Shown here in pieces: positions 1 to 10,038 of a stretch of 34,560 nucleotides of DNA (positions are counted from its first letter, which is position 1; the number at the start of each line of letters is the position of its first letter). The stretch covers positions 1 through 34,560 of the forward strand of contig JAEUHT010000298.1 of NCBI GenBank assembly GCA_016793265.1, given 5' to 3'. The DNA is from Planctomycetota bacterium. Its GTDB lineage: Bacteria > Planctomycetota > UBA1135 > UBA2386. The notes under the pieces were generated by a model. The model searched no databases and was not told where the DNA came from. It saw only the letters and a list, made by a program, of their open reading frames with translations. The position numbers were made by a program, and so were the translations under genes.

Positions 1-159
1 GTGCGCTTCCACAAGGACGGCTACACCGACCTGCGCGGACGCTTCGACTACGCCTCGGTCTCCGACGACCCCGACAGCAACGCCACCAGATACGCCGTGC
101 TCGTGCTGCACGACCAACGCGGCGCCGCCATCCGCGAAGTCGACCCGCCGACCAAGTGA
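1..159 (+). CDS. C-terminal end of a large secreted protein (partial)
   Basis: Frame 1 is open from the window edge to a TGA at 157-159, giving 52 residues. The visible part contains GYTDLRGRFDYAS, followed by a beta-strand-like AVLVLHDQRGAAIREVDPP. From memory this tail ends long alpha-2-macroglobulin/MG-like exported proteins of planctomycetes, where it probably forms the last beta-sandwich. That family assignment is recollection, not something the fragment proves. The first triplet happens to be GTG, but the sequence starts in mid-domain, so the gene is cut by the window edge and its true start lies upstream. It converges on the minus-strand operon that ends at 240. Confidence 0.6.
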   Translation: MRFHKDGYTDLRGRFDYASVSDDPDSNATRYAVLVLHDQRGAAIREVDPPTK

Positions 160-180
160 GCGCGGCGGGCCATCGGCCCC

Positions 181-211
181 AAAACGCCGCGCGGCCCATG
201 CGGGCCGCGCG
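181..211 (-). terminator. Intrinsic terminator-like hairpin at the end of the Bat operon
   Basis: A perfect 10-bp GC stem (188-197 with 202-211) encloses an ATGC loop. Read on the minus strand it is followed by GCG and then TTTT (184-181), so it fits the end of the minus-strand operon. It lies 29 bases beyond the second TGA at 240-242, so the transcript would include the 35-codon tail discussed at 240-350. The plus-strand gene ending at 159 has no T-run after the hairpin. Confidence 0.6.
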
Positions 212-239
212 TCACCGACAGCAGGCGTGCGTCAACGGC

Positions 240-350
240 TCAGGAGCCGCCGTTGTCGAACTCGGCACCACCACCGGCGCCGTTGTTCTTCTTCGGGCTC
301 TTGCTCTTGTTCGTGCGAGGCCGACCGGCCTTCGTGCCGCAGCCCTTTCA
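240..350 (-). other. Candidate UGA-recoded (selenocysteine) extension with SECIS-like hairpin
   Basis: After the TGA at 350-348 that ends the TPR gene, the same frame stays open for 35 codons to a TGA at 242-240. No ATG, GTG or TTG occurs in those codons, so it cannot be a separate gene in this frame. Thirty of the 35 codons end in G or C, as in genuine genes here, and the product is a basic tail beginning KGCGTKAGRPR and rich in Lys, Asn and Gly. Reading the TGA as selenocysteine gives E-U-K-G-C, a UxxC motif. A hairpin follows: CG (334-333), bulged A332, AGGCC (331-327), loop GGTC (326-323), GGCCT (322-318), CG (317-316). The loop starts 21 nt after the TGA, compatible with bacterial SECIS geometry as I know it. 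A TGC/TGG-to-TGA mutation, sequencing error or chance are alternatives. No sel genes lie in the window. Confidence 0.45.
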
Positions 351-944
351 CTCACCGGGCAGCGGCAAGCCCTGCAGGTCTTCGATGTCGAGGCGCGCGA
401 GGCGGATGGCGGCTTCGAGGTCGCCCTGGTGCTCGGCCACCTGCTCGCCGTCCTTCGACTGCTCGGCGAGCAGACGGTAGTTCTGCCGCGCGGCTTCGAT
501 CTCCGGCTCCCATGCCTCGCGGTCGAGACCTTCGAGGCGCATCAGCCAGGTCTTGTAGAACTGGGAACGCGCCAGCGCCTGCCGGGCTTCGCGCACGAGG
601 CCGGGATCGGCCTTGGTGTCGGCGTCGAGCTGTTCGACGAGCGTCTGCAGCGCGTCGCGTGCCTCGGGCAACTGCGATGCCTTCATGCGCGCCTTGTTGA
701 GCTCGAGCTGCAGCCGGTAGTTGAGCGCCGGGTCGACGGCCCCTTCCCCGGTCGGCAGCTTGCCGATGGCCGCCTCGTACTTCTCGACGGCACCGGCGAA
801 GTCGCCGGCATCGAAGGCGGCGTGCGCCGCGACCAGCACCGCATCCGCGGCCTCGAAGGCGACCCGATCCTGGCCGGGACCTTCGTGATAGGCCCATGCC
901 CCGATCGGCAGCATGAGCCAGCCCACCAACAGCAGTTTGCGCAT
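348..944 (-). CDS. Secreted TPR protein, BatC/BatE-like, end of Bat operon
   Basis: The product is 198 residues. An N-terminal signal sequence (MRKLLLVGWLMLPIGAWA) has a likely cleavage site after AWA at residue 18. The rest is helical: residues 28-64 (AHAAFDAGDFAGAVEKYEAAI) form a TPR-like hairpin, and more helices follow to about residue 190. The ATG at 944 is preferred to the upstream one at 971 because GGAG lies six bases before it and the signal peptide starts there. In Bat operons a small TPR protein (BatB/C/E type) usually follows two von Willebrand proteins and is thought to act with them in the periplasm; its order here, 3' of BatA and BatB, fits. A 121-base gap separates it from the DUF2809 gene, so it may also have its own promoter. 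The protein stops at LPLPGE, after which open, coding-like sequence continues in frame (see 240-350). Confidence 0.75.
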   Translation of the reverse strand: MRKLLLVGWLMLPIGAWAYHEGPGQDRVAFEAADAVLVAAHAAFDAGDFAGAVEKYEAAIGKLPTGEGAVDPALNYRLQLELNKARMKASQLPEARDALQTLVEQLDADTKADPGLVREARQALARSQFYKTWLMRLEGLDREAWEPEIEAARQNYRLLAEQSKDGEQVAEHQGDLEAAIRLARLDIEDLQGLPLPGE

Positions 945-1065
945 GATCGACTCCGTCGCGAATGCGGCCAACGTGGCGAAGTTGCGGGATCGCCGCAGGG
1001 GCGCCCGAGGTGACGCGGGAGTCTATCGGGCGGCCGCGAGCCCGGGGGCGAGGCCGGCGGAAAAG

Positions 1066-1479
1066 TTACGACCGGCCGGTGCGGGGGTGCGATCCTGGCC
1101 GGCGCGCGGCGCCCGGGCGCGAGAGTCGCCACCATCCGGCCAGCGCGAGCGCCACGCCGGTGACCTGGGCGCAGAGGTCGGCGACCTGGAAACCCTGCCC
1201 GAGCAGCAGCGCCCCGACCCGGGTCCGCCGCCAGGCCACGAGCCACGGCCACGGCAGCAGCTGCGCGCCTTCGACGGCGAACGCCAGCGCCAGCGCCACG
1301 GCAGCGAGCGTTCGTGACCGCGCCGATGGCCAAACGCAGGCCAGCACGAAGAACACCGCCGTCGCATAGAGGGCGTCCCCGGCGTGCTCGGCCAGCAGCC
1401 CGGGCAGCGGCCAGCGCCGCGAAGCGAGGCCGGCGGCGATGGTGACGGCGAGCGCTGCCAAGGCCCGGCCGCGGCTCAC
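1066..1479 (-). CDS. DUF2809 family membrane protein
   Basis: This 137-residue protein has four hydrophobic segments (about residues 5-19, 36-50, 57-72 and 100-117). It carries the pattern I associate with DUF2809: GDALYATAVFF near residue 35, E-x-x-QL at 70-74, and LLLGQGFQVADL around 91-102. The GTG at 1479 is chosen because it overlaps the stop of the upstream batB-like gene as GTGA, which implies coupled translation; an ATG at 1527 would give a 52-base overlap and an arginine-rich leader. The family has no established function. Its place inside a Bat operon suggests an envelope role but does not define one. Confidence 0.7.
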   Translation of the reverse strand: MSRGRALAALAVTIAAGLASRRWPLPGLLAEHAGDALYATAVFFVLACVWPSARSRTLAAVALALAFAVEGAQLLPWPWLVAWRRTRVGALLLGQGFQVADLCAQVTGVALALAGWWRLSRPGAARRPGSHPRTGRS

Positions 1480-2462
1480 GGCGCTGGCACGGCGTCGACG
1501 GCGACCGGCGCCGCACCCGGCCGCCACGCCGAGCCGCGGTAGTGCAGCAGCAGCGGCAGCAGCGCCAACAGCGCACCCCCGAACCCGATCGCCAGCAGCG
1601 CGTACTCCCGCAGCGTCAGTCGTTCGATCAGCGGCTTGCGCGCATCGGCCGACGCGGCCGCCAGCACGTCGCTCGGCACCTGGCGTTTGTTGCCGTTGTG
1701 GAACTCGCCGCCGAGGCGATTCGCGACCTGCCGCAGCGTGCTCTCGTCCTGGCGCGACTGGTGGCCGGCGATGAACTTGCCGGCGAGGTTGTCACCGACG
1801 CCGATGACGAGCGTGCCGCCGATCGACGGCGGCAGCTCGGGCATGCCGCTCGCCGGCACGGTGTCGCCGTCGCTGACGATCACCAGCAGCGAGCTGCGCA
1901 CCGGCCACGTCTTCGCCAACCTGGCGGCCTCGCTGATGCCGTCGAACAGGCGGGTCGTGCCGGGCTGGAACGCGAACCGCATGTCGACCTCCGACAACAG
2001 GTGCCGCACCACCTCGAGGTCCTTGGTGTCCTCGACCACGGGCTTGGCGCCGTTGTAGGTGGCGATGACGCTGACCTTGAACTTGCCGATCGGCACCCGC
2101 TCGAACAGCGAGTCGACGAGTTCGCGCGCGCGCTGGTGCCGGGTCTGGTCGCCGTTCACGCCGGCGTCCTTGAGGAACATGCTCGGCGAGACGTCGTAGA
2201 CGAGCAGCAGGTGCCGCCACTCTTCGTCCTTGACCTCCTGCCCCTGGTGCACGACCGGGTCGGCCTGCAGCAGCGTCACCAGCCCCCACGCCAGCGCCCC
2301 GTGCGCGAGCACGCGCAGGAACGGCACCGTGCAGAGCCACGCGCCGGGCGCGCCGTCGGGCCCGAACACCAGGTGGGAAAGCCGCCGCAGCCGGTTCGTG
2401 TGCAGCAGCTCGGCGATCGCCGCCACCAGCACGACGCCGAGCGTCACCCACAGCGTCACCAT
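1476..2462 (-). CDS. BatB-like von Willebrand factor A membrane protein
   Basis: The product is 328 residues, with N-terminal transmembrane segments (about 3-19 and 45-66), a VWA domain (about 84-265) and a C-terminal membrane segment (about 285-305). The metal-binding MIDAS motif reads VYDVSPSM, with D90, S92 and S94; TTRLFDG (about 159-165) and VSDGD supply the expected downstream threonine and aspartate. Such proteins anchor a metal-dependent adhesion domain in the inner membrane and are thought to work with MoxR AAA+ ATPases in protein maturation or stress tolerance. The ATG at 2462 overlaps the end of batA by seven bases. A second start-stop overlap joins it to the DUF2809 gene downstream. 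Confidence 0.85.
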   Translation of the reverse strand: MVTLWVTLGVVLVAAIAELLHTNRLRRLSHLVFGPDGAPGAWLCTVPFLRVLAHGALAWGLVTLLQADPVVHQGQEVKDEEWRHLLLVYDVSPSMFLKDAGVNGDQTRHQRARELVDSLFERVPIGKFKVSVIATYNGAKPVVEDTKDLEVVRHLLSEVDMRFAFQPGTTRLFDGISEAARLAKTWPVRSSLLVIVSDGDTVPASGMPELPPSIGGTLVIGVGDNLAGKFIAGHQSRQDESTLRQVANRLGGEFHNGNKRQVPSDVLAAASADARKPLIERLTLREYALLAIGFGGALLALLPLLLHYRGSAWRPGAAPVAVDAVPAP

Positions 2463-3379
2463 GGCGTGTACCTCAGCCCGAGCTGCACGAGGCCGTAGAG
2501 GCCGAGCACGGCGAGCCCGGCGATGCAGAACGGCGCGAACCAGTCGACCAGCTCCGCGCTGCCCTGTTCGAGCTTCGCCTTGGTCATCTGGTCGATGCGC
2601 TGGAACACCTCGGCGAGCGCCTTGGTATCGCCGGGGCTGAACACCTCGCCGCCGGTCAGCCGCGTCATGTTGACGATCTCGCCGGGCGCCTGCCCGTCGG
2701 TGATGTTGACCGCGAACAGGGTGATGCCGTCGCGCTTGAGCCGCTTGGCGATCTCGAGGTCGGCGCCGTTCATGATGTCGCCGCTCATGCCGTCGGTGAC
2801 CAGGATCAGCATGCGGTCGCCTTCGACGCGCGACGTCAGCACCTCGCGCGCGCCGAGCACGGCCTTGCCGATCTCGGTGCCACCGAACGCGGGCGGCGCG
2901 TTCTCGGGCCGCATGAACGGGATCGAGCAGCGGAACGCCGACGGGTCGCTCGTCAGCGGCACCCAGTGCAGGTAGTTGTTGCCGAAGAAGGTCAGCCCGA
3001 ACGAGTCGCCCTGGCGGTAGTCGAGGAACTCGTTGATCGCCTGCATCGAGGCGTCGTAGCGGCTGCCGCTGCCGAACTTCGCCGTCATCGAACCGGAGAT
3101 GTCGACGAGGAACTGGATGTTGGTCAGCGCCCGCTTCTGCCGCGGCGCCGCCAGTTCCTGCGGCAGCGACAGCAGCAGCACGGCGACGGCGAGCAGCAAG
3201 GCCGGCAGCGACTCGCCGACGCCGAGCACGGCGCGCACGAAGCGGCCGCTGCCGCGCGGGCGGCCGTCGGCGGCGGTGTCGAACGGCAAGACGACGCGGC
3301 GGCCGCGGCGCTGCCAGACCCAGCACAGGTGCAGCAGCGGCAGCACCAGCAGCAGCAGGAGCCATGGGCGCGCGAACAT
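2456..3379 (-). CDS. BatA-like von Willebrand factor A membrane protein
   Basis: The product is 307 residues and follows the classic BatA layout: an N-terminal hydrophobic helix (about 5-20), a second (about 57-72), a VWA domain from about 87 to 270, and a final helix at about 281-300. The MIDAS is complete: DISGSM (D93, S95, S97), threonine in GGTEIG (T168) and aspartate in VTDG (D196). It should present the VWA domain on the periplasmic side of the membrane and pair with BatB. Its ATG overlaps the upstream stop codon as ATGA, so translation is coupled to the BatD-like gene at 3379-4224. It is one of three VWA-fold proteins in the operon, with BatB and DUF58. Confidence 0.88.
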   Translation of the reverse strand: MFARPWLLLLLVLPLLHLCWVWQRRGRRVVLPFDTAADGRPRGSGRFVRAVLGVGESLPALLLAVAVLLLSLPQELAAPRQKRALTNIQFLVDISGSMTAKFGSGSRYDASMQAINEFLDYRQGDSFGLTFFGNNYLHWVPLTSDPSAFRCSIPFMRPENAPPAFGGTEIGKAVLGAREVLTSRVEGDRMLILVTDGMSGDIMNGADLEIAKRLKRDGITLFAVNITDGQAPGEIVNMTRLTGGEVFSPGDTKALAEVFQRIDQMTKAKLEQGSAELVDWFAPFCIAGLAVLGLYGLVQLGLRYTPW

Positions 3380-4224
3380 CAGGCCTTCCCCGCCGTGGTC
3401 TGGCCCGGCGCCGGCAGCGGCGCGAAGTCATCGGCGGTCACCGTGCGATACGGCGCCAGCAGGCCGGAGAGGTCGACGCGCGCCGGCGGCGCCGGCATGT
3501 GCAGCCAGGCTTCGATCTGGCGCAGCAGCGCCCCGGCCTCGGGGTGCCGTTTGATGGTGAGGATGGCGTCCGCCGCCTTCTGCTGCTGCAGGTCGAGCCG
3601 CGCCCGCCAGAACGCGAGCAGCAGACGTTCGAGTTCGGCCTTGGCGGCGCTGTTGGCGCGGTCGCCGGCGACGGCCTCGACCAGCGGCCGCAGGCGGTCG
3701 GCGAGCGTCGGCTTCGGCGGCGGCGGTGCCACGGCGGCGCGACGTCGACGGCGCCCGACGAACAGGATCAGCAGCAGCCCGACGGCCCAGGCGATGCCGG
3801 CGATCCCCTGCAGCCGCGAGTAACCGTCGAGCCGCGGCGCCGGCGACGGCGCTGGTTCACTCGGCTCCATCTGCTGCTTCGGCAACGTACGCGTCACCAC
3901 CACCGCGACCTTCGGCAGGTCGTCGCTGGCGGCGCCGTCCTTGCGGCGCAGGAACTTCGCCAGGTCGTACTCGCCGGCCTCGAGCCCGGTCCACTCGAGG
4001 TCGTAGCGCAGCTGGTTGCCGTGCGGCCACACCTTCAGCACGCGCACCACGACCGGCGACTTCATGTCGCCCGGCGCCGGTTCGAGCTCGCTGCCCGGCA
4101 GCACGAGCTGCTCGACGTAGGCGCGCATGCCGACCGCCGCCGAGCGCTGGTCGCGCGACTGCGCCGGCAACGCCGTCGTGACCAGCAGCGCCAACAGCAT
4201 CCCGAACCGACGGACGTTGCTCAT
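3379..4224 (-). CDS. Signal-anchored single-TM protein of the Bat operon (BatD-like position)
   Basis: The product is 281 residues. A signal peptide (residues 1 to about 21, ending LPAQ) precedes a periplasmic beta-rich region of about 100 residues, a proline-rich linker (about 119-132), one membrane helix (about 140-157), a stretch of arginines, and a cytoplasmic helical domain (about 173-260). This layout, exported domain, single helix, cytoplasmic helical tail, resembles a shortened BatD, and it sits where BatD-like or DUF4381-like genes are found, between DUF58 and BatA. I recognise no catalytic motif. The ATG at 4224 has a strong G-rich ribosome site (AGGGGGGCACG just before it) and overlaps the DUF58 stop as ATGA. 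The BatD relationship is inferred from architecture and context, not from a clear match. Confidence 0.65.
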   Translation of the reverse strand: MSNVRRFGMLLALLVTTALPAQSRDQRSAAVGMRAYVEQLVLPGSELEPAPGDMKSPVVVRVLKVWPHGNQLRYDLEWTGLEAGEYDLAKFLRRKDGAASDDLPKVAVVVTRTLPKQQMEPSEPAPSPAPRLDGYSRLQGIAGIAWAVGLLLILFVGRRRRRAAVAPPPPKPTLADRLRPLVEAVAGDRANSAAKAELERLLLAFWRARLDLQQQKAADAILTIKRHPEAGALLRQIEAWLHMPAPPARVDLSGLLAPYRTVTADDFAPLPAPGQTTAGKA

Positions 4225-5129
4225 CGTGCCCCCCTGCCGAGCCCGCGCGAACGGAAGAAGTGCCGCAGCCGGTGCACGAACGGCTGGTCCGTGCGCACGA
4301 GCATGTGGTCGACGCCGCCGCGGCGCAGTTCGCCTTCGATGCGGCCCTGGTCGAAGAACCCGCGCTTGCCGCTGCCGACGAAGTCGTGGCCGCTCTCGGC
4401 CTCGGCCGCGCGCAGGAAGCCGCCGCCGCGCAGGCCGAGCTCGGCCGGGTCCTGCAGCTGCACCACGGCGACCTCGTGCCGCTGCGCCAGCAGCGCCAGC
4501 GCGTGCACGGCGCCGGGCTCGTGCAGGTCGCTCAGCACGATCACGATCGAGCGCCCGGTCAAGGTCGGGCGCAGCTCGGCCACGCGCCGCGACAGCCGCG
4601 TCGACTCCTGGAACGAGTACCGCCGCAGCCGCAGCAGCCACTGCAGCACCTGGTCCTTCGCCAGGCTCGGTTCGATGCGCACGTCGCGCTGCCCGCAGCC
4701 GATCACGCCGACCGGGCTGGTGCGATCGAGGCAGGCCATGGCGAGGCCGCCGGCGATGTGCAGGCCGAGCTCGTACTTGCTGCGCGCGATCGAGGCCACC
4801 ACCATCGACGCCGAGGTGTCGATCAGGAACCAGGCCGGGATGCGCCGCTGCGCCTCGTATTCCTTGACGTGCACCTTGGTCGAACGCGCGGTGACGCGCC
4901 AGTCGATCGACTTGATCGGGTCGCCGGCCTGGTAGAGCCGCGACTGCACGTAGTCGATGCCGCTGCCGAGATAGCGCGAGCCGTCGAGGCCGTAGGTGAT
5001 GTCGTCGGCCAGCCGCCGCACGGCGATCACGAACTTGCGCGCCGCCAGCGGTTCGACCTTGTGCAGCAGCCCCGGCAGCGCCCGTTCGCGCGCCGAGATC
5101 CCAGCCGAGCTGTCGCGACCCGTGGCCAT
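4221..5129 (-). CDS. DUF58 domain protein (VWA-like)
   Basis: The product is 302 residues with no membrane helix. The DUF58 signature lies at about 69-96 (GDPIKSIDWRVTARST, then KVHVKEYEAQRR). It is followed by a VWA-like fold with MIDAS-type residues D104-T-S-A-S108 (LIDTSASM) and a VLSDLHEPG segment. DUF58 proteins are encoded directly after moxR in most MoxR operons and are regarded as MoxR partners, possibly as substrate-binding or adaptor proteins; the biochemical role is not settled. The gene overlaps moxR upstream and the BatD-like gene downstream by ATGA, so the three should be made in a fixed ratio. Confidence 0.88.
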   Translation of the reverse strand: MATGRDSSAGISARERALPGLLHKVEPLAARKFVIAVRRLADDITYGLDGSRYLGSGIDYVQSRLYQAGDPIKSIDWRVTARSTKVHVKEYEAQRRIPAWFLIDTSASMVVASIARSKYELGLHIAGGLAMACLDRTSPVGVIGCGQRDVRIEPSLAKDQVLQWLLRLRRYSFQESTRLSRRVAELRPTLTGRSIVIVLSDLHEPGAVHALALLAQRHEVAVVQLQDPAELGLRGGGFLRAAEAESGHDFVGSGKRGFFDQGRIEGELRRGGVDHMLVRTDQPFVHRLRHFFRSRGLGRGAR

Positions 5130-6133
5130 CAGCGCGCCGCTTCCGACAGGATCTCCTGCAGCACCTGCTGGCTCGTATGGCCCTCGGCGACGGCCTCGTA
5201 GCTGAGCCGCACGCGGTGCAGGATGACGTCCTCGGCCAGCGCGAACAGGTCCTCGGGCAGCACGTAGTCGCGGCCGTGGATCAGCGCCCGCGCGCGCGAA
5301 GCCTTGACCAGCGAGATGCCGGCGCGCGGGCTGCAGCCGAGCTCGAGCTGCGGGTGCCGGCGCGTGCGGTTGACGATCTCGACCACGTGCTGCAGGAACG
5401 CCTCGCTGACGTAGACCTGTTGCACGTCCTCCATCGCCTGCACGAGCCGATCCGAGCTGCCGACCGCCTGGTCCCCGAGCACGTCGAACTCGGTGCGCGC
5501 CACCGCGCCTTTGCCGTCGCGGCGCACGCCGAGCGCGGCGTTGCGGCGCAACACCTCGATCTCCTGCTCGGTGGTCAGGTACTCGAGCCGGTGCAGCAGC
5601 ATGAAGCGGTCGAGCTGCGCCTCGGGCAGCTCGAAGGTGCCGGCCTGCTCGACCGGGTTCTGCGTGGCGATGACGAGGAACGGCGCCGGCAGCGCGTAGT
5701 TCTGGTTGCCGATGGTGACGCGCCGTTCCTGCATCGCCTCGAGCAGCGCCGACTGCACCTTCGGCGCCGCGCGGTTGATCTCGTCGGCGAGCAGCAGGTT
5801 GGTGAAGATCGGCCCCTTGTGGGTGCGGAACTCGTGCGTCTTCTGGTCGAGGATCTCGCTGCCGACGATGTCCGAAGGCAAGAGGTCGATGGTGAACTGG
5901 ATGCGGGCGAAGGCGAGGTCGACCGTCTTCGACACCGCGGCGACCAGCAGCGTCTTGGCGAGCCCGGGCACGCCCTGCAGCAGCAGGTGGCCCGAGGTCA
6001 ACAGCGCGATCAGCACCCGCTCGACGACGACGTCCTGGCCGACGACGACCTTGCCGACGCGGGTACGGATCTGGTCGAGGAACTCGCGCGTCTCGGCGAA
6101 ACGCGGCTTGGTGGTGGCTTCGGGGGCGGTCAT
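5129..6133 (-). CDS. MoxR-family AAA+ ATPase
   Basis: The product is 334 residues, the usual length for the family. The Walker A motif is GVPGLAKT (54-61), Walker B is LLLADE (113-118), and sensor 1 is in IATQNP (155-160). The segment ELPEAQLDRFMLLHRLEYLT is the conserved arginine-finger region, and SPRAGISLVKASRARA near the C-terminus is the MoxR lid signature. MoxR ATPases act as chaperone-like motors for VWA-domain partners, here DUF58, BatA and BatB. The ATG at 6133 lies 44 bases after the stop of the giant upstream gene, and the 3' end overlaps the DUF58 start by ATGA. It is the best-supported member of the operon. Confidence 0.95.
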   Translation of the reverse strand: MTAPEATTKPRFAETREFLDQIRTRVGKVVVGQDVVVERVLIALLTSGHLLLQGVPGLAKTLLVAAVSKTVDLAFARIQFTIDLLPSDIVGSEILDQKTHEFRTHKGPIFTNLLLADEINRAAPKVQSALLEAMQERRVTIGNQNYALPAPFLVIATQNPVEQAGTFELPEAQLDRFMLLHRLEYLTTEQEIEVLRRNAALGVRRDGKGAVARTEFDVLGDQAVGSSDRLVQAMEDVQQVYVSEAFLQHVVEIVNRTRRHPQLELGCSPRAGISLVKASRARALIHGRDYVLPEDLFALAEDVILHRVRLSYEAVAEGHTSQQVLQEILSEAAR

Positions 6134-6177: not shown

Positions 6178-9100
6178 TCAGCCGAGGCGGCTGAGCCAGC
6201 GGGTGGCGACGTCGGTGAGGTCGATGCTCTGGTCGTCGCCGCGTTCGAAGTGGCAACGCTCGATGCGGCGGATGTCGGCCGCCAGCAGCTCGCGGTCGGC
6301 TGCCGGGAAACGGCCGCGCGCGGCAACCTCGCGCAGGAGGCCGAGCACCGAGAAGGCGGTGACGTGGCGCGGCAGCGTCAGCTCGGCGCCGGCCGCCGGA
6401 CCGCGGCCCATCGCCGGCTTGCTGAAGAACCAGATGCAGTAGACCACCAGCGCGAGGCCGAGCAGCAGCCACGCCCACCACGGGTTCTCGACGCGCAGCC
6501 GCGCCTGCAGCGCCACCAGCGGGGACACCGTCTCCAGGTCGGCGTCGGCGTAGCGCTGGTAGCTGACGACGAACGCCTCGTCGCGCGGCTCGCCGAAGCG
6601 GAAGCTGCCGGGACGGCTGGCCCCGCTCGGCTCCAACGACAACAGCCAGACGCGTTCGCTCTCGATCGTCTTCTGGTCCTCGCTGAACTTGACCACCGCG
6701 GCGCCCTGGTCGTCGCGCTTCTTGACCGTGAAGCCCGGCGTCGTCAGCGTCAGCAGCGTATCGAGGTCCGGCACCAGCCCCTTCGCCTTGGCCTTGATCT
6801 CGAGCGTGACCTTGCCTTCGTCGGTGCGGCGTTCGTCGAGGATCTGCGCGATCTCGACGCCCGCGAACGGCCGCGGCTCCGGCTGGTGCGAGGCATCGAT
6901 CACCACCGGCGCGGTGCCGACCGGCAGCACCATGTAGCCCGAGGTGTCGTTGAAGTCGAAGTCGATCTGCAGCACCGGGATGCGGTCCACCTGCGGCCCG
7001 CGCGCCTGCAGCAGGAGCCACGCGTACGGCGTCATGCGCCAGCCCGGCTCGTCGGCCGGCTTCGACGCCATCACCTCGCTGTTGAACGTCACCGACAGCA
7101 CCTCGAAGTGCTCCTGCAGCGCGGCGGTGACCGCCTCCTGGAAGCGGTCGCGGTAGTTCTCCAGCGGGCGACCGTAGTTGTAGTAGAAGCCGGCGCCGGT
7201 GTTCTGGTTGGTCGCGTACTTCTGGAAGCCGCCGCTCTCGCGCTCGATCGCGCGCGTGTGCACGATGTCGATGCGCACGCCGAACGGTGCGGTGCCGACC
7301 TGCGTCGAGCCGTCGACGACGGCCTCCAGCCGCAGCTCGTGCAGCAGGTCCTGGTAGTAGTCCCAGACCTTCTTCGCCTCGTACGCCTGCGGGTGGTCGC
7401 CGACCAGGCCGAAGCCGGCCTCGAGGTAGCGGTACTTGATCTGCGGTTTGACCGCCGACATGCGCGTGAACAGCGCGTTGGCGAACATCGACAGGTGGCG
7501 CTCGTCGCTGCCCTTCGGCAGGGCGTCGATGGCGGCGCGGATCAGCGGGATCTGGTTCTTGGCGACGACCTTGTCCTCGTCGACGGCGCCGAGGTCGGCG
7601 GCGCCGAGCGCGGCGTAGAACCAGGTGTCGAACGGCGCGATCGTCTCCTCGTCGAGGCGCAGGTCGCCGGCGCCGTCGGCGTAGGCCTTGGCGGCCTCCT
7701 GGAACAGCGCGAACGCGGCCTTGCGACGATCGGCGAAGCCGCTGTCGTTGGCCTGCTCCTGGGCGAAGTTGTTCTGGTCGTGCAGGATCGAGGCGACCAC
7801 CGCGAGCAGCGCCCAGTGGCGACCGTGGGTGCGCAGGCCGTCCTGGGCGATGGTCAGCGCCGTCTCGTAGCCGTTCGCGACCTCGAGCATCGTCTCCCGC
7901 TGCGAGCGCTTCGTCTTCTCACGCTCCTGCACGGCGGGCACGCGCCAGACGGTGGCGAGGTTGGTGCGCATCTTGCCGAGCAGCTCGGCCAGCAGCTGCG
8001 GATCGAGCGCGCCGATGTCGCCGAACACCTTCTGGATGGCGTCGAGCCGGTAGACCTCGGCGGCGCTGTGCGCCGACTGGAACGCCTCGGTGAGCAGCTT
8101 CTGGTCGACGCCGCCCTCGATCGGCAGCCGGCGCAGCCGTTCGACCCACGTCGCCAGCTCGGCGAGGTTGCGCTCCTGCTTGCTGCGCGTCAGCGGGATG
8201 CCGTCGGCGCGCTGGTCGAACCCGTACATGAACATGTAGCGGTTCGTGCGGTTCTGGTTCGGGTTGTGGTTGCGCGTCCACACCCGCAGGAACTCGCCGG
8301 CCAGCTCCTTCGCCTTGCGCGGGTTGATGCCGGCGAGCTGCTCGATGAACGGGAACGCGCGCGCCGGCTCGTTGACCTTGAGGCACAGCTGGGCGCTGAT
8401 GGTCAGGAAGTGCGGCGCCAGCGACTCGTCGAGCAGCGTGGCCCACTCTGGCCCCGGCTGCGCCTTCAGCACGTCGTCCGGTTCGATCGCCGCGACCTGG
8501 CCGCCGCCGCCGCGCCGCATCGAGCCGTAGAAGAAGTTGCCGTACTCGTCGCGCTGCAGCATCGGCCCGAGCGAGTCCGACTGCGAGTTGGTGTAGCTGT
8601 AGGCAGCCTCGTTGATCCAGCCGGCGGCGAGCAGCGCCAGCGTCGGCCGCCACTGCCCGGCGAGCTCGGGCGCCGTCTGCAGCAGCGCTTCGACCGCGGT
8701 CTTCTGCAGGGCGAGGCCGACGCCGCGGAAGTCCGCGTCCTGCGCGTTCTCCTGGAAGCCGCGCGCCACCAACGTGCCGATCGTGGCGATGATCTCCATG
8801 CCGCGCTCCGGCCGCTGCGTGAAGCTCTCGGCGAGCCACGCCGGGCCGAGGTCCGCGTGCACCTTCGGCGCCAGCTCGACCGCGCGCCGCAGCGCCTCGG
8901 CCTTCTCGTCGTCGCCGATCTCGCCCTTGGCCAGCGCCGCCTGCGTCACCCGCCACGCCGTCTCCAGGTGCGTGGTGCGCTTCTCCTTCGCGTACATCGC
9001 CAGCGCGTGGCGCGCGATCAGGTTGAGCCCCTCACGGTCGTTGTCCTTCTCGGCGTCGGCCGCCGTCGGCAACAGCGGCCCGATCTCGACGTCCTGGCCG

Positions 9101-10038
9101 AGCGCGATCAGCAGCAGGGCGGCCTCGCGGCGGTCGAGCCGTTGCTCGGCCGGCGGCTTGCCGGTCTCGACGACGAGCTGGCGCAACAGCTCCTCGAGCA
9201 CCGAGCCGGCCTCCATCGCCCGCGTCACGATCGGCGCCAGCAGCGGCGCCTGCTTCTTGTCGAAACCGCCCGGTGCGATGCCGGCGATCGCGATCGCGTC
9301 CTCGAAGCCGAAGCGGTTCTTCTCCTGCAGGTTCGGCGGCACCCGCTGGTCCTCGGGCCGCTGCGGGTGCGTCAGTGCCATGCGCAGGAAGTGCTCGTAG
9401 GCGGGCTTCCGGTCGGCTTCGACGAGGCTGCCGAAGAACTCGCCGAGCCGCGCCCAGCGGCCCAGCGTGACGTCGCGCTGCAGCATCTCGAACTCGCGCG
9501 CGAGCCTCTTCTCGGCGAGCTCACGTTCCTGCTGGGCGGCGGCGGCGGCAGGATCGACGGCGACCGCCGCGGCCCCGGCCGGCGGCTCTTGGCCGAACTG
9601 CCGCGTCAGCTCGGCTTCGATCTCCTCGGCGGTCATCGGCTTCACCTCGACCGACTTCGCCTTGGCCGCTTCCTCGGCCGGATCGTACGGCTTCAGCTCG
9701 GGCGCCACCCACGCCTTCAGCACCGTCGACGGCCGGCGGTCCCACGGCAGCGCCTTGAAGCGCTCGAAGCGGCCCTTCGCGGCCAGGGCCTGCTCGGCCG
9801 TCCACGTGGTCGTCGGCGCGTCCACCGCCTCGACCTTGCCGGCGCCCGGCGCCGGCTCCTGCGGCAGCTCCAGCGACACCGCGGTGCCGCGCACCAGGGT
9901 CACCGACTTCGCCGGCACCGCGCGCACCGACGGCACCGGCCCGGTGCCTTGCGCCAACAGGCTGGTGCCGAGCAAGGTGAGGACGATCGGGCGGCAGAAC
10001 GCGGACAAGTGGGGCATCGGCGTGGCTGGCGGGCGCAT
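6178..10038 (-). CDS. Giant signal-anchored protein (1286 aa) upstream of MoxR
   Basis: The product has a signal sequence (to about residue 30, ending LLAQG), a long exported region of roughly 1150 residues, one membrane helix (about 1188-1206), and an 80-residue cytoplasmic helical tail. The N-terminal two-thirds is alpha-helical and resembles degenerate TPR/armadillo-like repeats; residues of about 640-1100 mix helices and beta-rich parts. An alanine/glutamate-rich stretch (about 140-185) looks disordered. I recognise no enzymatic motif. The tail (FSVLGLLREVAARGRFPAAD) recalls the cytoplasmic end of BatD, so this may be the cluster's large exported BatD-like partner, but that is an inference from topology and position. 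The start at 10038 is preferred because GAGG lies eight bases upstream; an alternative ATG at 10017 has no ribosome site. Confidence 0.75.
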   Translation of the reverse strand: MRPPATPMPHLSAFCRPIVLTLLGTSLLAQGTGPVPSVRAVPAKSVTLVRGTAVSLELPQEPAPGAGKVEAVDAPTTTWTAEQALAAKGRFERFKALPWDRRPSTVLKAWVAPELKPYDPAEEAAKAKSVEVKPMTAEEIEAELTRQFGQEPPAGAAAVAVDPAAAAAQQERELAEKRLAREFEMLQRDVTLGRWARLGEFFGSLVEADRKPAYEHFLRMALTHPQRPEDQRVPPNLQEKNRFGFEDAIAIAGIAPGGFDKKQAPLLAPIVTRAMEAGSVLEELLRQLVVETGKPPAEQRLDRREAALLLIALGQDVEIGPLLPTAADAEKDNDREGLNLIARHALAMYAKEKRTTHLETAWRVTQAALAKGEIGDDEKAEALRRAVELAPKVHADLGPAWLAESFTQRPERGMEIIATIGTLVARGFQENAQDADFRGVGLALQKTAVEALLQTAPELAGQWRPTLALLAAGWINEAAYSYTNSQSDSLGPMLQRDEYGNFFYGSMRRGGGGQVAAIEPDDVLKAQPGPEWATLLDESLAPHFLTISAQLCLKVNEPARAFPFIEQLAGINPRKAKELAGEFLRVWTRNHNPNQNRTNRYMFMYGFDQRADGIPLTRSKQERNLAELATWVERLRRLPIEGGVDQKLLTEAFQSAHSAAEVYRLDAIQKVFGDIGALDPQLLAELLGKMRTNLATVWRVPAVQEREKTKRSQRETMLEVANGYETALTIAQDGLRTHGRHWALLAVVASILHDQNNFAQEQANDSGFADRRKAAFALFQEAAKAYADGAGDLRLDEETIAPFDTWFYAALGAADLGAVDEDKVVAKNQIPLIRAAIDALPKGSDERHLSMFANALFTRMSAVKPQIKYRYLEAGFGLVGDHPQAYEAKKVWDYYQDLLHELRLEAVVDGSTQVGTAPFGVRIDIVHTRAIERESGGFQKYATNQNTGAGFYYNYGRPLENYRDRFQEAVTAALQEHFEVLSVTFNSEVMASKPADEPGWRMTPYAWLLLQARGPQVDRIPVLQIDFDFNDTSGYMVLPVGTAPVVIDASHQPEPRPFAGVEIAQILDERRTDEGKVTLEIKAKAKGLVPDLDTLLTLTTPGFTVKKRDDQGAAVVKFSEDQKTIESERVWLLSLEPSGASRPGSFRFGEPRDEAFVVSYQRYADADLETVSPLVALQARLRVENPWWAWLLLGLALVVYCIWFFSKPAMGRGPAAGAELTLPRHVTAFSVLGLLREVAARGRFPAADRELLAADIRRIERCHFERGDDQSIDLTDVATRWLSRLG

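Follow-up and report, generated by a model that had tools for sequence, protein, structure and literature searches.

Comparative evidence for a selenocysteine codon in the TPR protein gene of the Bat-type operon of Planctomycetota

Gene content of the locus and the frame behind the TPR gene

The window, that is, the whole stretch of 34,560 nucleotides analyzed here, belongs to a genome assembly that is 81% complete and is distributed over 316 contigs. On its (-) strand, which also holds all the other features described below, it carries the gene of a MoxR AAA+ ATPase (5129–6133), followed by those of a DUF58 protein (4221–5129), of a conserved operon protein with a signal-like N-terminus and no Pfam match (3379–4224), and of two VWA proteins, one BatA-like (2456–3379) and one BatB-like (1476–2462). 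The TPR gene that is the subject of this work (240–944) comes after them, so that what defines a Bat-operon TPR protein, i.e. a TPR domain together with MoxR, DUF58 and two VWA neighbors, is fulfilled. A DUF2809 gene of uncertain start (1066–1527), found only in near relatives, lies between the BatB-like and the TPR genes. The order MoxR-DUF58-VWA-VWA-TPR is kept in the loci of relatives where the contig is long enough, with the exception of one locus (L055), in which the putative TPR selenoprotein gene is on a long contig without Bat genes within 5 kb upstream. In other families, a protein of about 1,270 residues without Pfam match is encoded directly after the TPR gene. Its homologue in the window (about 1,240 residues; 6325–10005, as the extent of the tblastn match) stands before MoxR, and this large protein is a conserved component of the Bat operon.

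The TPR gene opens with the ATG at 944, and its frame of 198 amino acids is closed by the TGA at 350–348. Beyond it, 35 further codons (243–347) stay open in this frame up to a second TGA (242–240); no ATG, GTG or TTG is among them, and 30 of the 35 have G or C at the end, as counted here. If the first TGA (348–350) is read as selenocysteine (Sec, U), the peptide across it is E-U-K-G-C, the read-through product ends in ...LPLPGE-U-KGCGTKAGRPRTNKSKSPKKNNGAGGGAEFDNGGS, and the complete gene (240–944) consists of 234 codons, with Sec as codon 199 and the second TGA as terminator. Codon 199 would then be the first of a UxxC motif, Sec-Lys-Gly-Cys (339–350). An earlier note on this DNA had described the TGA, the 35 start-less codons with their G/C endings and the E-U-K-G-C peptide, and all of them were recovered on the sequence. 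It had also placed a terminator-like hairpin past the second stop; this hairpin is present at 210–189, followed by GGCGTTTT, but with four T only it stays below the threshold of the terminator scan. The scan for sigma-70 promoters and terminators gave no match, the Rfam scan of window positions 1–1200 gave none above gathering, and none was obtained in the plasmid and phage collections searched. A separate small gene after the first TGA was considered and discarded, as the frame has no start codon and the Cys homologues are continuous.

Sec/Cys exchange, selection on the tail and the Sec genes

When the source genome was searched at the protein level together with 100 relatives, the gene was located in 46 genomes, with a TGA inside the aligned region in all but a few. 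When the tails were read, the position equivalent to residue 199 was an in-frame UGA in 42 of the 46 distinct homologues and Cys in the other four: L032 (LPLPCQCKGC), L072 and L074 (LPLPKNCSGNC) and L073 (LPLPKDCKCNC). In an alignment of 45 sequences, this column was a UGA or a Cys codon in 45/45, and the preceding Leu-Pro-Leu-Pro and the tail residues Gly222, Gly233 and Ser234 were likewise invariant. As the earlier note had proposed, it was checked whether TGA or Cys stands at this point in the homologues; one or the other occupies the exact position, and the tail is common to the homologues. Its tentative statement that planctomycete homologues have Cys-rich tails was also right (CKCNC, NCSGNC, CKCKGCC). 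A class-wide search found the gene in 74 of 154 genomes, with a TGA within 71 of 75 places. In a phylum-wide search, again with the tails read, Sec forms were found also in families f11, f23, f24, f26, f32, f41, f47 and f58, and further Cys forms in families f17, f32, f47 and f54. The Cys homologues are L032, L072–L074, L096, L098–L102 and L106–L108. At this position both Sec and Cys are missing from L121, a distant homologue.

In the tree set, Sec occurs in 61 rows, with the motif types UxxC (40), CU (12), UxxU (4), U-x5-U (4) and UxxS (1), the last having neither a nearby Cys nor a second Sec. The maximum-likelihood tree requires four Sec/Cys changes; branches with good support make at least three of these unavoidable, and the Cys form L032 (genome G024) lies within a clade of Sec forms. 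Two observations can be added on the variety of these genes. In family f23 (L109–L120) a vicinal Cys-Sec pair, GGCUQG, replaces UxxC, and the hairpin differs (CTCGGTTCGA type). The TPR selenoprotein gene occurs twice in genome G487, on contigs G487:C160 and G487:C282.

Selection was estimated in two groups of homologues as pairwise Nei-Gojobori dN/dS, with the 30 codons past the second stop as comparison. The values for the two groups were 0.31 and 0.40 in the body of the protein, 0.50 and 0.33 in the tail, and 0.84 and 0.69 past the second stop. The comparison of the tail with the codons past the stop indicates therefore that protein-level selection crosses the first TGA and ceases at the second.

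Concerning the genes needed for Sec insertion, the source genome contains selA (459 bits), selD (360 bits) and tRNA-Sec (75.8 bits, gathering 47). Of selB, only the C-terminal half was found, at the end of contig C245 (L075, 2807–3634, (-) strand); it matches positions 457–578 of TIGR00475 with E 1.9e-8 and 33.5 bits, below the family cut-off, and the remainder is either absent from the assembly or unrecognised. The search for this machinery, suggested in the earlier note, thus yielded selA, selD and tRNA-Sec plus a part of selB. A SelB-like match on contig C256 was rejected, as by eye it reads as a different translation factor. The selD of the source genome, directly behind selA (L076, contig C15 of G000, about 6184–7215), is itself a selenoprotein gene, with a UGA in SSG-U-AAKL. 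Among the 101 genomes of the relatives set, selA was found in 95 and tRNA-Sec in 91. Each of the 42 Sec genomes of the 46-homologue search had selA or tRNA-Sec, and selA was present in 11/11 additional Sec genomes tested. Among the 13 Cys genomes, selA was present in seven and absent from six; these six are all of family f32 and 99–100% complete, and the sole f32 Sec genome has selA.

These results bear on a rival reading of the locus, in which translation simply terminates at the UGA, the TPR protein of 198 residues is the product, and the likeness downstream is that of an untranslated or regulatory conserved segment. In its favor, the gene has a clean end at the UGA, a stop there is not contradicted by any protein data, and the hairpin described below has by itself an unremarkable energy. 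However, conservation at the protein level extends in the downstream frame as far as the second stop and not past it, the Cys homologues read through the position without any stop, and the presence of selA follows the Sec form within f32 as just described. A plain stop is thus regarded as very improbable. The outcomes that the earlier note had named as refuting a Sec extension, i.e. homologues without a conserved tail, or a genome lacking the Sec genes and reads with TGC or TGG at the position, were not met.

The hairpin downstream of the UGA

The putative SECIS hairpin of the window gene (core 318–331) is formed by a 5-bp stem, 331–327 with 322–318 (AGGCC/GGCCU), and a GGUC loop (326–323), and lies 21 nt past the UGA at 350–348. 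The earlier note had pointed to this stem and loop at this distance, and both were found as described, the hairpin being conserved in relatives. A published model of bacterial SECIS elements specifies a loop of 3–9 nt, an upper stem of 4–16 bp, an energy of -7.5 kcal/mol or lower, a G within the first two loop positions and a distance of 16–37 nt from the UGA (PMC13188914). With a loop of 4 nt, a stem of 5 bp, GG as the first loop positions and a distance of 21 nt, the window hairpin meets this model (PMC13188914), which answers a check proposed in that note. Its energy was -8.2 kcal/mol for the isolated 5-bp hairpin and -10.1 kcal/mol for the stretch from +10 on. Folding energy alone is ordinary for the GC-rich DNA of this locus and not significant (z = -0.43), so the support from the hairpin is taken from comparative evidence only.

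The two strands of the window contain 554 TGA triplets. When a qualifying hairpin was defined as a GGTC loop on at least four Watson-Crick pairs, 15–34 nt downstream of a TGA, only TGA 350–348 and TGA 354 had one, and these two have one hairpin in common. The window hairpin exceeds chance expectation. In the UGA genes of the 46-homologue set, a loop beginning with GGTC on a stem was found in 42/42; the stem has at least five pairs in 40 of them and four pairs in one. The remaining one, L045, was taken at first sight as an exception without hairpin, and this was rejected: it does form one, in a shifted register and with the loop GGUCU. The distance of the loop from the nearest upstream TGA was 18–27 nt, mostly 21. 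The Gly codon in the loop was GGT in all 42 genes, versus 72 of the 431 upstream Gly codons of the same genes; because the genes are related, this does not amount to 42 independent events.

Covariation was studied with 42 distinct 24-nt hairpins, of which the relatives set supplied 35 and other families 7, with L045 excluded. Stem cells were paired in 99.5% of cases, versus at most 62% in slid controls, and the covariation score was 0.818 versus 0.252 for shuffles. The score is partly a two-clade effect, with stems built around KAGRP and GRGRG, and additional pair types are present. Concerning the folds, minimum-energy structures of a 48-nt stretch often favor an alternative pairing. In the stretch from +10 on, which is taken to be the RNA that is free while the ribosome occupies the UGA, the GGUC hairpin was the minimum in 41 of 42 cases, the last being L045 with its GGUCU loop. 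Both the hairpin and the basic peptide encoded by it, KAGRPR or GRGRG, were absent from the four Cys homologues of the 46-homologue set.

Genes with two UGAs display particular arrangements. In the UxxU genes (L024, L026, L028 and L030) a single hairpin lies 27 and 18 nt past the two UGAs, a geometry by which one SECIS may serve two Sec codons. In the U-x5-U genes (L040, L041, L042 and L044) the two UGAs are six codons apart; the first has its own hairpin, which holds the second UGA in its loop, and the second is followed by a GGTC hairpin 21 nt on.

Coding past a UGA is by itself no proof of Sec, and one has to consider that the codon could be read through with another amino acid, for instance Trp by nonsense suppression, or be a sequencing error for TGC or TGG. 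Against this, TGA recurs across dozens of separately assembled genomes, the exchange is always with Cys and never with Trp, and the UGA genes have retained a SECIS-type hairpin that the Cys genes have lost. Nor can UGA be simply reassigned in general, because it is also the terminator of the same gene. Such read-through or error is considered hardly credible. That the TPR gene is a selenoprotein gene, in which SelB and the GGUC hairpin would direct Sec at UGA 350–348, is instead held to be highly probable from these comparisons. The Sec extension read by the earlier note is supported by the Sec/Cys exchange, the tail, the SECIS and the Sec genes. The comparative support for recoding is strong, and there is no protein or selenium-labelling evidence.

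Protein architecture, known systems and possible function

The AlphaFold2 model displays a helix at residues 2–21, a confidently predicted TPR-like helical solenoid at residues 25–190 (375–872) and, from about residue 196, a disordered tail with pLDDT below 50. The N-terminal helix (882–941) is hydrophobic, and AWA stands before YHEGPGQ; from these features it is inferred to be a probable export signal or anchor. Foldseek against the PDB returned only generic TPR folds, none of them at E ≤ 0.001. Neither AlphaFold2 nor Foldseek gave a thioredoxin fold around UxxC, the Sec being placed in the disordered tail of the solenoid.

A working mechanism can be proposed from these elements. SelB with Sec-tRNA(Sec) would bind the GGUC hairpin just past UGA 350–348, and the ribosome would not stop there but insert Sec; the Sec UGA would be told from the genuine terminator, the UGA 35 codons on, by the hairpin together with its distance. 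The resulting protein of 234 residues would begin with a helix for export or anchoring, continue as a TPR solenoid and end in a flexible tail that bears Sec199-Lys-Gly-Cys202. By inference, the tail would be outside the cytoplasm and cycle between selenol-thiol and selenenylsulfide, and it may act together with the MoxR/VWA (Bat) complex, docked to a partner through the TPR part. Both the redox role and the extracytoplasmic location are inferred only from the motif and the signal-like sequence.

Even if Sec is accepted, the tail could bind a metal, e.g. in metal loading of MoxR/VWA proteins, rather than being a thiol-type redox centre. Several Cys homologues are cysteine-rich in a way that would suit such a role (CKCKGCC...C, CKCNC...CQGKC), whereas most Sec forms have just one Sec and one Cys (the UxxC and CU types, 40 and 12 of 61) and the UxxS form lacks any partner nearby. 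An exchange of Sec with Cys is characteristic of redox centres, as are the pairs CU and UxxC. Metal binding is thus judged unlikely, without being negligible. Going further along the redox reading, the Bat/MoxR system of Planctomycetota might be a selenium-dependent extracytoplasmic redox relay, in which the mobile Sec-Cys arm of the TPR subunit passes reducing equivalents; this is a tentative idea, possible rather than probable.

Work on Bacteroides led to the proposal that the Bat (Bacteroides aerotolerance) proteins either act on oxidised proteins of the periplasm by reducing them or export reducing power (PMC3557215). Reports on Bat phenotypes vary by species, and bat deletions in Leptospira biflexa were equal to the wild type in growth and morphology (PMC3557215). 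The proposed periplasmic role lacked a chemical basis, and with the present arm the Bat/MoxR-VWA operon has a candidate for its redox centre. As a hypothesis, the Sec-Cys arm is a suitable chemical centre for that proposal, which becomes thereby directly testable; were the relay true, the old idea of reducing power supplied to the periplasm would gain a concrete centre. The planctomycete protein shares with the Bat TPR protein the export-type N-terminus and the position behind MoxR, DUF58 and two VWA genes, and differs from it in that its C-terminal tail, which is flexible, bears a redox-type motif with Sec or Cys.

Other known systems are similar in part. Thioredoxin-like UxxC selenoproteins also have UxxC, Cys homologues and a bacterial SECIS right behind the UGA, but the planctomycete protein has a TPR-like solenoid and a tail instead of a thioredoxin fold, and Sec on the disordered tail of a TPR scaffold is its unusual feature. 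Thioredoxin reductase likewise carries a redox pair on a flexible C-terminal arm, its Cys-Sec tail being comparable to the GGCUQG of family f23, whereas here the arm is on a TPR scaffold and there is no flavoprotein reductase domain.

Concerning novelty, none of the 119 families and subfamilies in a 2026 inventory of prokaryotic selenoproteins is related to TPR or Bat proteins, and no NCBIfam model was above cut-off for any of 45 members. Weak NCBIfam matches to Amuc_1098 and BamD/YfiO were dismissed as TPR look-alikes far under cut-off. No report of a TPR, MoxR/Bat-operon or planctomycete selenoprotein of this kind was found in open-licence papers; this scope leaves out subscription papers, preprints and supplementary tables, so priority is probable and not certain. 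The gene appears to add a prokaryotic selenoprotein family, widespread in Planctomycetota, whose members standard gene calling would truncate at the UGA.

A last comparison concerns the hairpin itself. The SECIS of E. coli fdhF has the same GGUC apical loop at a similar distance from the UGA, but it differs in stem sequence, the planctomycete stem encoding KAGRPR or GRGRG. An RNA signal can in this manner dictate a segment of the protein, the hairpin-encoded peptide being missing in those Cys homologues that were examined for the hairpin.
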